In this document: piece by piece, positions 32,138-36,531 of the stretch
Numbering within the stretch: the stretch's first letter is position 1
Layout: each line of letters opens with the position of its first letter
Source: a virus
Direction: 5' to 3' (one strand)
IMG/VR virus record: IMGVR_UViG_3300027365_000030
Span: 1 to 40,209 of that record
Length of the DNA: 40,209 bases
Made by a program: the position numbers and the translations under genes
Notes under the pieces: generated by a model
What the model was told of the DNA's origin: nothing
The model's database searches: none
What the model saw: only the letters and a program-made list of their open reading frames with translations

Positions 32138-32710
32138 ATGAAAGCAATCAAAAGTAAACTGATTGCAGCATTTATTGCAGCGGGGCTTAGTGCCCCGGCT
32201 GCTTTTGTTGCATATGATCTTACTTTGCCATCAGAGGGGTTAGTATTACAACCATATTCCGACCCTGTCGGGCTAAAGACGATTTGCGCAGGCCATCTTG
32301 TCCAGAAAGGTGAGAAAGTAAAACCCTCCTACACAGAAGAAGAGTGCATGGAAATCTATGCAAGTGATTGGAAGAAACACTTAAAGCAAATTGATAGTGC
32401 TGTTCGTGTTCCCTATGCTTCTGAATGGCAACGTCAAGCTTTGAATGATTTCACTTTCAACCTTGGCATCAACTCTGTCAAAGGCAGCACACTTCTCCGT
32501 CTTGTCAATCAAGGGAAACACAAAGAAGCTTGTGAGCAATTGACACGATGGGTTTATGCTGGCGGTAAAAAGCTCAAAGGTTTGGTGATCCGTAGAGACA
32601 AGACAATGTCTTATTGCCTTGGAGAGCTTACACCAGAGAAGCAGAAAGAATATAAAGAATTCTTGGAGCAATATAATGAAATTTCACGAAGATTGGAAAA
32701 AGATTCTTAA
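32138..32710 (+). CDS. SAR endolysin, GH24 lysozyme
   Basis: The 190-aa protein degrades peptidoglycan. Residues about 8-25 (LIAAFIAAGLSAPAAFVA) form a weakly hydrophobic signal-anchor-release segment, rich in Ala/Gly as in P21 R endolysin, so export by Sec without cleavage is likely. The catalytic triad is spaced as in T4/P21 lysozymes: Glu33, Asp42 and Thr48 (E-x8-D-x5-T). QRQALNDFTFNLGI and the C-terminal GLVIRRDKTMSYCL are other GH24 marks. Cys50 near the active site could take part in regulation by disulfide exchange, as in some SAR endolysins. The holin gene starts inside its 3' end. Confidence 0.92.
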   Translation: MKAIKSKLIAAFIAAGLSAPAAFVAYDLTLPSEGLVLQPYSDPVGLKTICAGHLVQKGEKVKPSYTEEECMEIYASDWKKHLKQIDSAVRVPYASEWQRQALNDFTFNLGINSVKGSTLLRLVNQGKHKEACEQLTRWVYAGGKKLKGLVIRRDKTMSYCLGELTPEKQKEYKEFLEQYNEISRRLEKDS

Positions 32711-32906
32711 AACTTACAGCTTTCTTTCTCTTGTAGCAAACTTGCTGATTGCTCTTAGTGTTTCTGGCTTAGCTGTATTGGGTGTTCTATCCTCTCAAGT
32801 GGCATTTGGAACTCTTGCTATCTCAGCATCTGTCCTTGGTCTTCTTGGTGCTATTGGTAGGTTGGTGGATCAATCTTACGACGATATGAGGGAAGAGGAT
32901 GAGTAG
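32676..32906 (+). CDS. Holin (two-TM)
   Basis: The 76-aa product starts at ATG 32676, after TGGAG, inside the endolysin gene (35-base overlap). It starts MKFHEDWKKILKTY. Two membrane segments are clear: FLSLVANLLIALSVSGLAVLG and VAFGTLAISASVLGLLGAIG. A charged tail DQSYDDMREEDE follows. Size, topology and position between SAR endolysin and Rz fit a pinholin or small class II holin that depolarises the membrane and frees the endolysin. A second start such as a dual antiholin form is not obvious. Confidence 0.85.
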   Translation: MKFHEDWKKILKTYSFLSLVANLLIALSVSGLAVLGVLSSQVAFGTLAISASVLGLLGAIGRLVDQSYDDMREEDE

Positions 32907-33300
32907 ATTATTTATCATAATCATAGTTGTTCTACTCTCCCTTACATCCTTGTTTGGTTATCTCTCCTACTCATTTTATAGCGATAAAGCAACGCTTAAA
33001 GCTGATGTGGATCGTTTAGTGAAAGCTAATGCAACGCTTGTTTCTGATGTAGAAAAGGCTACTAAATACTGTCTTATTGTTGATGAAATCAATAGAAAGA
33101 AGGACGAAGAACAGAAAGTCTTGGATGAGAAGAAAGAAGGGATTGTAAAGCAGATAGATGTTCTTGAACAGAAGCCAAAAGCTATCAAAAAGGAGACAGT
33201 GAATGAAACACAGTCTGATGAGGTGGACATTGACGCTCCTTTGCCTAATGAGCTTGTGGAGCTGCTCAACGAAGCCTATCGAGACGCAGTACAGAGATAG
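32899..33300 (+). CDS. Rz-like inner-membrane spanin
   Basis: The 133-aa protein overlaps the holin by eight bases. One N-terminal membrane anchor (LFIIIIVVLLSLTSLFGYLSYSF) is followed by a periplasmic coiled-coil region (LKADVDRLVKANATLVSDVEKA, RKKDEEQKVLDEKKEGIVKQIDVLEQ) and a Pro-containing tail (DAPLPNELVELLNEAY). This is the typical i-spanin build. The Rz1-like gene starts inside it in another frame. Together they fuse inner and outer membranes in the last step of lysis. Confidence 0.88.
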   Translation: MSRLFIIIIVVLLSLTSLFGYLSYSFYSDKATLKADVDRLVKANATLVSDVEKATKYCLIVDEINRKKDEEQKVLDEKKEGIVKQIDVLEQKPKAIKKETVNETQSDEVDIDAPLPNELVELLNEAYRDAVQR

Positions 33301-33481
33301 AGTGCATACAACGCCAGATAGTCTTCTTGTTGATCCTTGTGTAGCTAAAGAAGCTGGATGGTCTGTAAGGAGTTTATCAAAAGCCTATATTACCAACACC
33401 ATGTGTATAGGAAAGTATAGGCTTTTATTAGATAAACAGAGAAAATACAAAGACCAGATTCTAAACCTATATCAAAAATAG
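33203..33481 (+). CDS. Rz1-like outer-membrane spanin lipoprotein
   Basis: The 92-aa product starts within the Rz-like gene in the +1 relative frame. The signal peptide and lipobox are MRWTLTLLCLMSLWSC with Cys21, so it is processed by signal peptidase II and lipid-anchored in the outer membrane. About 40 residues after the lipobox the protein has an extended C-terminus, VRSLSKAYITNTMCIGKYRLLLDKQRKYKDQILNLYQK. It is longer than lambda Rz1. The same extension occurs a second time, diverged, at 34193-34318 beyond the inserted HNH gene. Its end overlaps the end of that HNH gene by ten bases, in convergent orientation. Confidence 0.87.
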   Translation: MKHSLMRWTLTLLCLMSLWSCSTKPIETQYRDRVHTTPDSLLVDPCVAKEAGWSVRSLSKAYITNTMCIGKYRLLLDKQRKYKDQILNLYQK

Positions 33482-34140
33482 AATCTAACAGTCTCTACAC
33501 GCTGTTGTAAGTCTTTTTCTATATTTGCTGCCACAGATAGTAAGTTTTCTGCTATCTTAATGTTAAAAGTTTGGCTCACAGATGGTTCAAACTCCCACCA
33601 CAATACATACTCACGAATAACTTCTACTTTTGCTAGTTGCCATGCGGCGTGTGCCTCCATTGCGGTAGCATACATACCCAAGTGTTTACGCGGCCCGCGT
33701 AAGGTTTGAACGGCTGCCCTGAAGGGTTTCTTAAGAAAATTTACCATGTCTTTCGAAATCTTGTCTTTAGACACACCAATTGGATATTCACCGCGAGCAG
33801 CCCCGCATGTCCCAAAGATACAGTTTATAGCATTTGGAACAAATGCGCAAGTCTGAGGACTATATTGAGTATTGTCTGGGTATAACAAGTCTTTATCCAA
33901 ACGCATACCTTGCCAGCGTTGGAGTTCCATCCAAGCTTTGAAGTTTGAGAATGTCAGCCATTCTTCACAAACTGTACAGTTTGAGTAGGTTGGTTGCTTT
34001 TGCTTAACCCTAGGACTGTAACACCTAGCAAGCATGTCAACCCAAGTGCGGTAAAATGGGCAGGTTTCTCTTTTACCGTTTACTAGGGGGTTTACTGGAT
34101 ATGCTGCATCATTCTTGCCCACATTTCGAACAAATTTCAT
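33472..34140 (-). CDS. HNH-family homing endonuclease inserted in the lysis region
   Basis: The 222-aa minus-strand product has AAGGAG before its ATG at 34140. It has the pattern CPFYRTWVDMLARCYS...PTYSNCTVCEEWLTFSNFKAWME...LDKDLLYPDNTQYSPQTCAFV, common to a family of free-standing phage HNH/AP2-associated nucleases. A basic C-terminal DNA-binding part with AHAAWQLAKVEVIREY follows. The enzyme at 35157-35780 is a close family member with the same blocks. It points against all neighbouring genes, has its own promoter (34197-34168), and is bracketed by two copies of the Rz1 C-terminus, so it is a recent insertion. Confidence 0.85.
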   Translation of the reverse strand: MKFVRNVGKNDAAYPVNPLVNGKRETCPFYRTWVDMLARCYSPRVKQKQPTYSNCTVCEEWLTFSNFKAWMELQRWQGMRLDKDLLYPDNTQYSPQTCAFVPNAINCIFGTCGAARGEYPIGVSKDKISKDMVNFLKKPFRAAVQTLRGPRKHLGMYATAMEAHAAWQLAKVEVIREYVLWWEFEPSVSQTFNIKIAENLLSVAANIEKDLQQRVETVRFYF

Positions 34141-34167
34141 TATGGCTCCTTATATTGTGAAAAGGTT

Positions 34168-34197
34168 ATACTATTTAAAAACATATAGCGTTGTCAA
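34168..34197 (-). promoter_or_regulatory. Minus-strand promoter of the HNH gene
   Basis: On the minus strand TTGACA (34197-34192) is a perfect -35 and TAGTAT (34173-34168) a fair -10, at 18-base spacing. The start would be near 34161, about 20 bases before the HNH ATG. The promoter overlaps the start of the Rz1-like remnant on the other strand. Confidence 0.55.
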
Positions 34198-34318
34198 GTC
34201 CTTTTTGGCTCGTGGCTACGTAGAAAACACTTCCTGTATTGCTAAATATAAATCCTTGCTTGAGAAGCAGAGGAAACACAAGCAGCAGATAATGGAGCTT
34301 TATGATGCCACACAATAA
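34193..34318 (+). pseudogene. Second, detached copy of the Rz1 C-terminus
   Basis: In the plus frame the 41 residues VKSFLARGYVENTSCIAKYKSLLEKQRKHKQQIMELYDATQ (split here at residue 20: VKSFLARGYVENTSCIAKYK then SLLEKQRKHKQQIMELYDAT) align with the Rz1 end VRSLSKAYITNTMCIGKYRL / LLDKQRKYKDQILNLYQK at roughly half of positions. There is no lipobox and no ribosome site; an ATG at 34142 lies in the HNH leader. It is best read as a displaced gene end left by the HNH insertion. It overlaps the start of the gene at 34302. Confidence 0.7.
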
Positions 34319-34631
34319 CCCCGATACAGCGGCAGTAATTGTCGATAGACGAATTAACACCTATTGGGAGAGGGCTGCGCTTGGTCTTATGGCTATCGTC
34401 ATGTCCCTTGTGGTGTGGAGTTTCCAAGAACAAGGAAAGCGTGTGGAAAACCTTGAAGCCAAAGTAATTGCAATGGACAAGGTGAAAGTTGATCGGGGTG
34501 ATCTGAAGGAAGTGGAAGAGCGCCTTAACTCCAAGATGGATGCTCTAAAGAGTGACATTATAGCGCGGCAGGATTTAATGCAGTCGAGCATCTTGTCAAG
34601 ATTGGATATGTACTTCAAACAAAAGCCGTAG
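34302..34631 (+). CDS. Single-pass membrane protein with coiled coil
   Basis: The 109-aa product has two adjacent ATGs (34302, 34305) following GGAG; the second has the better spacing. A membrane segment lies at residues about 26-42 (AALGLMAIVMSLVVWSF), followed by an extended charged coiled coil (GKRVENLEAKVIAMDKVKVDRGDLKEVEERLNSKMDALKSDI). The N-terminus starts inside the Rz1-like remnant. A type of small phage membrane protein with cytoplasmic N-terminus and long coiled coil is common after lysis genes, but I cannot assign a function. Antiholin or superinfection exclusion roles are possible. Confidence 0.62.
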   Translation: MMPHNNPDTAAVIVDRRINTYWERAALGLMAIVMSLVVWSFQEQGKRVENLEAKVIAMDKVKVDRGDLKEVEERLNSKMDALKSDIIARQDLMQSSILSRLDMYFKQKP

Positions 34632-35156: not shown

Positions 35157-35780
35157 TCACTCTTCAATCACATAGTTTTCGTAGCGTTCAATCAAAGCTT
35201 TAGCAACACGAGGGTCAGATTGTTCAGCAGCAAGAATTTTAGCTTGTTCAAGTTTAAAAGCAAGCCATGCTTTGTGAGCTTCGAGTTCTGTGTCGAAGAG
35301 TCCGAGATGTTTCTGCTTTCCTGATCCATCGCCACACAGCGCCTGAAATTTATTAACCCCTCTATGCCAGCAGACACCAATCATCAATCGCCCACGAGAA
35401 GCATTTCTTTCAGTTACGAACAAATTAACCTTCTTGTCCACAAAGACACAGGCACGGGGGCTGTATACTTCGTTACCTTGTAGCAACAGGTCTTTATCTA
35501 ATTGTTTTCCTTCCCAATCTTGCTTTTCCATCCAATGTTTAAAGTTTGAAAAGACAAGCCAGTCTTTACAGACAGAGCAGCCAATGTAGGTTGGATACTT
35601 TTCTTGCCACTTAGCGGAGTAGCACCGCCGAAGCATGTCTCTCCATTTACAGTAGAATGGACAAATCCACACAAGTTTCCGCTTTTGTTCACCGTTTTCA
35701 TAGTTGATCGTTTCACACTTTTCCACAGCATAATCTGCATCATTTATTCCAACACCATAGAGTAATTTCTTTTTCTTCAC
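35157..35780 (-). CDS. HNH-family homing endonuclease (relative of 33472)
   Basis: The 207-aa product starts at GTG 35780, six bases after AGGAGGT on the minus strand (the ribosome site within the 29-bp repeat). A longer frame reaching 35867 would overlap the upstream gene and lacks a site. The order of blocks matches the enzyme at 33472-34140: GVGINDADYAV, CPFYCKWRDMLRRCYS, PTYIGCSVCKDWLVFSNFKHWMEK, LDKDLLLQGNEVYSPRACVFV, then a C-terminal DNA-binding part (KQKHLGLFDTELEAHKAWLAFKLEQA) that recalls AP2-type tails. It lies last in the minus-strand block, directly after the GIY-YIG fusion gene. Confidence 0.85.
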   Translation of the reverse strand: MKKKKLLYGVGINDADYAVEKCETINYENGEQKRKLVWICPFYCKWRDMLRRCYSAKWQEKYPTYIGCSVCKDWLVFSNFKHWMEKQDWEGKQLDKDLLLQGNEVYSPRACVFVDKKVNLFVTERNASRGRLMIGVCWHRGVNKFQALCGDGSGKQKHLGLFDTELEAHKAWLAFKLEQAKILAAEQSDPRVAKALIERYENYVIEE

Positions 35781-35785
35781 AACAC

Positions 35786-35814
35786 ACCTCCTAAAATGGT
35801 AATCCTTCTTCGTC
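35786..35814 (-). repeat. 29-bp exact repeat, right copy (inverted partner at 1062-1090)
   Basis: Read on the minus strand it encodes DEEGLPF, the stop codon TAG of the GIY-YIG fusion gene and the AGGAGGT ribosome site of the next gene. It is identical to 1062-1090 on the plus strand, about 34.7 kb away. Confidence 0.9.
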
Positions 35815-36531
35815 ATTCCCTTGGTGGGGCCGAGGAGCCAAGGATTGAGATAGGATGCGAGTCCCAAACTCCTCTACAATACCGTGTTTATCCAAAACAC
35901 CAAATTGCAACTCTTCCATAATTCTATAAGTGTTGTACCTTTCGTTGAAAGTATTTTTGCTCTTAATCTCAAGGTAGCCACACTGCTTCAGAACTTGAAA
36001 GAGAGAGTGTACAGATTTCCTCACCGTAGCACAAGCCTTGGCTATATCTTCTTGTTTATCAAAATATTCCTCACCTCTTTCCTTGAAAAACTTGTAACGA
36101 TTTATAAAATATAACAACACCACCTTATTTGTATGGCTTATGCTGACGTAACTGCCATCCTTCAAGTTCTTTACGTGAGTCGCACGTATTACTGAATAAT
36201 AGCAAGGGAAGTGGGTGTCAACTTCCCGGTCATGCGGTACAGGCGCGTCGCCCACTATGAGAGACTTCACTTTCTCTTGTTTATGAAATCTGGCACTATA
36301 TCCACCACCTCTCGTGATATTATCTAAACTCAGACTTTGATCGGAGATACACTCCTTCTCCACCCTGTTTGCTTCTTCTACGTCCCAAGTCTCGTAGAAG
36401 ATATTCATGGTAATATCTTCGCCATAGTTTCTCTTATGATGACGAAGCCGCATCTCTGGGTTTTTAGTCAAGCCGATATAGAACACCTCTTTGTTTTCGA
36501 CTAACTGGTAAACATAGATAATTTTCTTCAC
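35791..36531 (-). CDS. GIY-YIG nuclease fused to winged-helix domain with SSB-like tail
   Basis: The 246-aa product starts at GTG 36531, after GAGGAAA. Residues 1-80 form a GIY-YIG nuclease domain: IIYVYQLVENKEVFYIGLTKNPEMRLRHHK carries the two Tyr motifs and the Arg helix, EANRVEKECI the Glu, and DNITRGGG the closing Asn. Residues about 105-190 align with the winged-helix protein at 588-1085 (FPCYYSVIRATHVKNLKDGS; NKVVLLYF..FF; FDKQEDIAKACATVRKSVHS; GYLEIKS). The protein ends GNDEEGLPF, the same SSB-like tip. So it appears to be a homing nuclease that has captured a replication/regulatory DNA-binding domain, or the reverse. The function of the fusion is unknown to me. Confidence 0.8.
   Translation of the reverse strand: MKKIIYVYQLVENKEVFYIGLTKNPEMRLRHHKRNYGEDITMNIFYETWDVEEANRVEKECISDQSLSLDNITRGGGYSARFHKQEKVKSLIVGDAPVPHDREVDTHFPCYYSVIRATHVKNLKDGSYVSISHTNKVVLLYFINRYKFFKERGEEYFDKQEDIAKACATVRKSVHSLFQVLKQCGYLEIKSKNTFNERYNTYRIMEELQFGVLDKHGIVEEFGTRILSQSLAPRPHQGNDEEGLPF

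Follow-up and report, generated by a model that had tools for sequence, protein, structure and literature searches.

Homing genes of phages are known to take refuge in introns, inteins, intergenic gaps and split genes. The closest described counterparts of the locus analyzed here come from yeasts and fungal mitochondria. In Torulaspora and Lachancea yeasts, WHO elements combine a nuclease gene with a 3' end of FBA1 that is foreign to the recipient; after homing, FBA1 is chimeric but intact and the remnant of its old 3' end lies on the far side of the nuclease gene, a scheme that was proposed with cleavage data and for which allele-specific cleavage was shown (Coughlan et al. 2020, PMC7282813). 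The mobile ORFs (mORFs) of fungal mitochondria, found in Glomus atp6, atp9, cox2 and nad3 and in Allomyces atp6, resemble our locus in that an endonuclease ORF lies near the 3' end of a gene, a foreign C-terminus is fused in frame, and the displaced native C-terminus matches insert-free relatives, but they encode LAGLIDADG or GIY-YIG nucleases and reside in mitochondria (PMC3630166).

In phages, HNH-AP2 ('IPA-HNH') homing endonucleases have been described, for example in ICP1; they carry an N-terminal HNH and a C-terminal AP2 domain, as is predicted for the enzyme considered here, are free-standing and lie near essential genes, and the accessible text of that source does not describe replacement of a target-gene end (PMC10448857). 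Free-standing nucleases of the T4 mobE/mobA/seg type, according to the accessible part of PMC2988022, also sit in a phage gene whose function is kept, as we infer for Rz1, but they leave that gene as two working pieces, whereas the substitute end would give a one-piece gene. The T5-like phages Shivani and phiR201 have a GIY-YIG homing nuclease gene in the spanin locus, as here, but it parts the i-spanin from the o-spanin, and a duplicated Rz1 end is not described in the accessible text (PMC6139136). Our searches of the open-access literature turned up no description of phage homing genes that replace gene ends, and the accessible portions of reviews on spanins, T4 mobile elements and bacterial introns contain none either.

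The DNA studied, hereafter the window, is the 40,209-nt viral record IMGVR_UViG_3300027365_000030 (positions 1-40,209). Its lysis operon comprises a lysozyme gene (32138-32710), a holin-like gene, Rz and Rz1 (33203-33481; Table 1). The Rz1 product matches PHROG_456, an Rz-like spanin (E 7.5e-5), and has the hallmarks of an o-spanin: a short lipoprotein with an LWSC lipobox, encoded with a 98-bp overlap with the Rz frame. Around the end of Rz and the start of Rz1 (about 33130-33260), the window is ~45-70% identical to six relatives, and it is nearly identical to them farther out, which makes this stretch an island of divergence adjoining the insert. A convergent HNH gene overlaps the 3' end of Rz1 by 10 bp, and on its far side lies a second version of the Rz1 tail. 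We consider it highly probable that this arrangement stems from a free-standing homing cassette whose insertion exchanges the 3' end of the gene it targets.

Table 1. Predicted features of the Rz1 locus in the window
Feature	Position	Strand	Remarks
Rz (i-spanin)	32899..33300	+	PHROG Rz-like spanin, E 1.7e-13; overlaps Rz1 as usual; marker of the lysis operon
Rz1, native part (o-spanin lipoprotein)	33203..33373	+	signal peptide; lipobox ending at Cys 21; body to codon 57
Putative substitute Rz1 3' end, cassette-borne	33374..33481	+	35 codons and stop
Predicted HNH nuclease gene with C-terminal AP2 domain	33472..34140	-	PHROG_953 match
Putative sigma-70-like promoter of the HNH gene (TTGACA, 18 nt, TAGTAT)	34168..34197	-	consensus scan; at the right edge of the unit
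Mobile unit (substitute tail, HNH gene and its promoter)	33374..34204		831 bp; ~93% identity to L011
Displaced native Rz1 3' end, severed from its gene	34205..34318	+	79-88% aa identity to HNH-free tails

The tail on Rz1 reads LSKAYITNTMCIGKYRLLLDKQRKYKDQILNLY (coded by 33374-33472), and the second tail, beyond the HNH gene, reads LARGYVENTSCIAKYKSLLEKQRKHKQQIMELY (34205-34303). The two share 19 of 33 residues (58%); the next best match to the tail in all six frames of the 40-kb window reaches 9/33, and 20,000 permuted tails gave at most 11/33. Comparison of one flank with the other across the HNH gene by tblastn gave E 1.5e-11. The recurrence of the Rz1 C-terminus noticed in a sequence-only reading of this DNA is thus well above background, with two corrections. 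That reading had placed the second copy at 34193-34318, whereas homology begins at 34205 and the bases 34193-34204 belong to the insert. It had also described the copy as lacking both a start and a lipobox; the lipobox is indeed absent, but an in-frame ATG inside the insert (34142) would open a putative 58-codon ORF running through the second tail. The final bases of this tail run into the following gene, whose start (34302) the tail preserves.

Which of the two tails is native was addressed with HNH-free relatives, as the sequence-only reading had suggested. An IMG/VR search with Rz1 yielded nine close HNH-free loci (L001-L009), whose tails are 79-88% identical to the stranded copy in amino acids (79-85% in nucleotides) and 52-55% identical to the tail on Rz1 (52-58%). 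The more distant L117 gives the same order (85% versus 70%). Each HNH-free relative examined has one Rz1 with a single tail, and Rz1 codons 57|58 are continuous there, which defines the empty site; joining the Rz1 body of the window (to codon 57) to the stranded tail restores an uninterrupted, ordinary Rz1, and codons 24-57 are nearly identical between the window and these relatives. Because the single tails of HNH-free relatives match the stranded copy, the stranded piece is the native Rz1 end and the tail now on Rz1 is foreign. The phylogeny of both copies, also suggested earlier, places the substitute tails of the window and of two other HNH carriers (L011 and L012) in one clade (support 95/93), and a topology that makes sisters of the two tails in the window is rejected (p-AU 2e-6), although tails of 99 nt do not resolve the finer branches of the tree. 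Compared with L001, the stranded tail has a dN of 0.07 and a dS of 0.95, with no decay, which would fit a recent displacement.

The two other carriers, found by searching with the HNH protein (L011 94% and L012 67% identical to that of the window), share this layout: their Rz1 carries a substitute tail and is followed by the HNH gene and then by a stranded tail. In 3/3 carriers the break falls at codons 57|58, and each stranded tail picks up at the corresponding codon. The substitute tail of the window is 91% identical in amino acids to that of L011 and 64% to that of L012. The unit has moved between phages, because the window and L011 are ~93% identical within it, whereas the adjoining Rz1 body is 57-78% identical and the other flanks mostly 35-60%. 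Synonymous divergence between the two is 0.23 in the tail and 0.30 in the HNH gene, against 1.0 in the Rz1 body and saturation in the displaced tails; since tail and HNH gene are similar to each other in this respect and unlike their surroundings, they share a history. Together with the match of HNH-free tails to the stranded copy, this joint travel of tail and HNH gene into the same codon of different Rz1 genes bears out the earlier proposal that the cassette brought a substitute 3' end. The TTGACA of the promoter is kept in L011 and L012, though consensus sites in the region are no more numerous than expected by chance. The 21-mer at the left edge of the cassette occurs elsewhere in IMG/VR only in the L011 contig.

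A search for close relatives of L011 and L012 that lack the HNH gene yielded none, so that the stranded tail is established as the lineage's own for the window only. A donor with tail and HNH gene but without the stranded piece was likewise not found. All three carriers are metagenome-derived viral contigs, and a stranded gene end was seen in 0/8 isolated phages with related HNH genes; therefore, no cultured carrier is known yet.

The HNH protein matches PHROG_953, HNH endonuclease (E 7.6e-78), with no match in Pfam or NCBIfam. In an AlphaFold2 model (pLDDT 87.6), the C-terminal half most resembles plant AP2 domains: the best Foldseek matches are 1gcc and 7wq5 (probability 0.98 and 0.97, though with E >0.1), and VIA-align Z scores against AP2 structures are a modest 5.3 and 6.0, from which we assign a predicted C-terminal AP2 fold. 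For the HNH half, neither sequence nor fold searches retrieved a solved structure. Many HNH enzymes carry D-H in the HNH motif. Here, D-K-D occupies that place and is invariant in 68/68 aligned family members, and because of this substitution the predicted nuclease activity is not certain. As in free-standing homing genes, the locus combines a known nuclease family, a precise empty site and horizontal movement relative to its flanks. A group I intron was considered and rejected: an Rfam search of 33100-34500 returned no intron, and the Rz1 frame ends at its own stop codon, close to the left boundary of the insert.

Farther downstream, beyond a terminator-like stretch, the window holds a second HNH gene of the same family (35157-35867, minus strand), 99% identical to a copy at the same place in L007; no duplicated gene end was found around it. 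It is overlapped by an ORF (35791-36531, minus strand) with a start that looks GIY-YIG-like by eye (IYVYQLV..FYIGLT) and that, if it encodes a nuclease, would be the third within 3 kb.

We compared both flanks of ~200 distinct related HNH genes (cut-off E <1e-6) and found a duplicated gene end across the HNH gene in 8, versus 1 of 898 control segments after setting aside pairs of HNH paralogues (p 1e-5). Three of the eight cases concern Rz1 and five other genes (L164, L064, L133, L025 and L288). Comparison with HNH-free relatives confirms two of the five as end replacements. In L164 (2514-3712), a 152-aa gene of unknown function has a putative substitute 3' end, and the HNH gene runs in the same direction; the HNH-free L230 matches the stranded end at 33/43 positions and the other end at 24/43, making this a second 3' case. 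In L064 (2816-3859), a 79-aa gene has the HNH gene in its 5' part; the native 5' piece is stranded upstream, and the gene after the HNH gene begins with a substitute 5' end. The HNH-free L129 is 88% identical to the stranded piece, and its resemblance to the downstream gene lies mostly in the second half of that gene, as for a replaced 5' end.

The remaining three resemble gene-end swaps but are less settled. L025 (2901-3868) and L133 (1501-2598) involve one small gene family, with the HNH gene near the 5' end in one and near the 3' end in the other. The relative of L025, L237, is by eye slightly closer to the downstream copy (18 versus 14 of 27); for L133, the support is a single segment common to the relatives and its stranded piece, and its HNH match does not extend over the whole gene. 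In L288 (1230-2505), the first ~17 codons of a gene that is ninG-like by eye are duplicated across the HNH gene, and the upstream copy meets a stop two codons after the duplicated part; L288 is too short to tell which end is native. Separately, in phage KLEP7 (L239, 1-2645), the gene for the anaerobic ribonucleotide reductase NrdD lies in pieces, with two annotated ORFs and, after them, an HNH gene of this family. Overall, phrog_953-type HNH-AP2 nucleases of phages probably include a class that inserts within genes and carries a substitute 3' or 5' end for them.

Among the alternatives for the Rz1 locus, ordinary homing with co-conversion survives best and is nonetheless unlikely. It would make the tail on Rz1 a passenger flank from a donor with a different Rz1 tail; flank co-conversion is usual in homing (accessible text of PMC3984707), and the ~120 bp immediately left of the insert, where the window departs from each of the six relatives it was compared with, are possibly such a co-converted tract. 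Simple co-conversion would, however, overwrite the recipient tail, which is kept; moreover, the left edge of high window/L011 identity is the insertion codon and not a variable place, the pairing of tail and HNH gene extends to L012 despite an HNH protein only 67% identical, and unrelated genes show the same arrangement. Vertical inheritance of a single ancestral insertion, with loss in the HNH-free phages, is very improbable even though all three carriers share the site: similar divergence throughout would be expected, yet the Rz1 body, stranded tails and neighbors differ strongly between the window and L011 around a cassette that is ~93% identical, which rejects this history for that pair, an older split from L012 lying outside the rejection. 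Least credible is the reading that the Rz1 tail was duplicated in tandem long ago and the HNH gene landed between the copies later, which would account for two homologous open reading frames but is rejected because the two-tailed HNH-free relatives that the sequence-only reading had set against its own explanation were sought and not found, exactly one tail being present in those with ample downstream DNA (L001-L003, L006-L009, L117, L119, M1 and more distant ones; L004 and L005 have <200 bases beyond the tail, limiting the check there), and because the tail on Rz1 groups with those of other HNH carriers, and not with the window's second copy, at an insertion point identical in three phages.

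For the end-replacing homing cassette, comparison at the sequence level thus establishes which tail is native, where the empty site lies, how far the unit extends and that it has moved between phages, and the events behind this may be pictured as follows. The unit would enter a phage with an ordinary Rz1, the nuclease cutting or nicking the native gene at the conserved site near codon 57/58. In repair templated by the carrier, the Rz1 body would serve as one homology arm and the stranded tail as the other; everything between them would be copied in, and the new junction would fall precisely at codons 57|58. The Rz1 body of the recipient would thereby be joined to the imported tail and stop, while its own tail would end up on the far side of the nuclease gene. 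Rz1 would stay whole because the copied segment opens with a full tail, so a full-length Rz1 would still be coded, and the chimeric protein would presumably work in lysis. The altered sequence after codon 57 would shield the carrier from its own enzyme.

The Rz1 cassette would thus work like a WHO element, with which it shares a chimeric target with a foreign 3' end and a displaced native end beyond the nuclease gene, but it is not one, because it encodes an HNH-AP2 protein and targets Rz1, not an HO/VDE-zinc finger protein and FBA1. WHO elements reside in yeast nuclear DNA, encode an HO/VDE intein-like nuclease with a zinc finger and form clusters of decayed copies, whereas the cassette lies in phage DNA as a single copy, with its predicted nuclease gene in opposite orientation to the target. 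Yeast and fungal mitochondria already provide examples of gene-end replacement as such. What distinguishes the phage cases is the HNH-AP2 enzyme, together with the replacement of a 5' end, for which we found no precedent in the open-access literature.

Bringing a spare gene end would be a further survival route for phage homing genes and, if the proposed class holds, one in which an intron, an intein and a split protein are all unneeded. The same solution, reached with unrelated nucleases in yeast, fungal mitochondria and phages, points to convergent evolution. Each move of the cassette would create a chimeric phage protein, and the Rz1 locus offers a short lysis gene whose empty and filled alleles can be put to the test.
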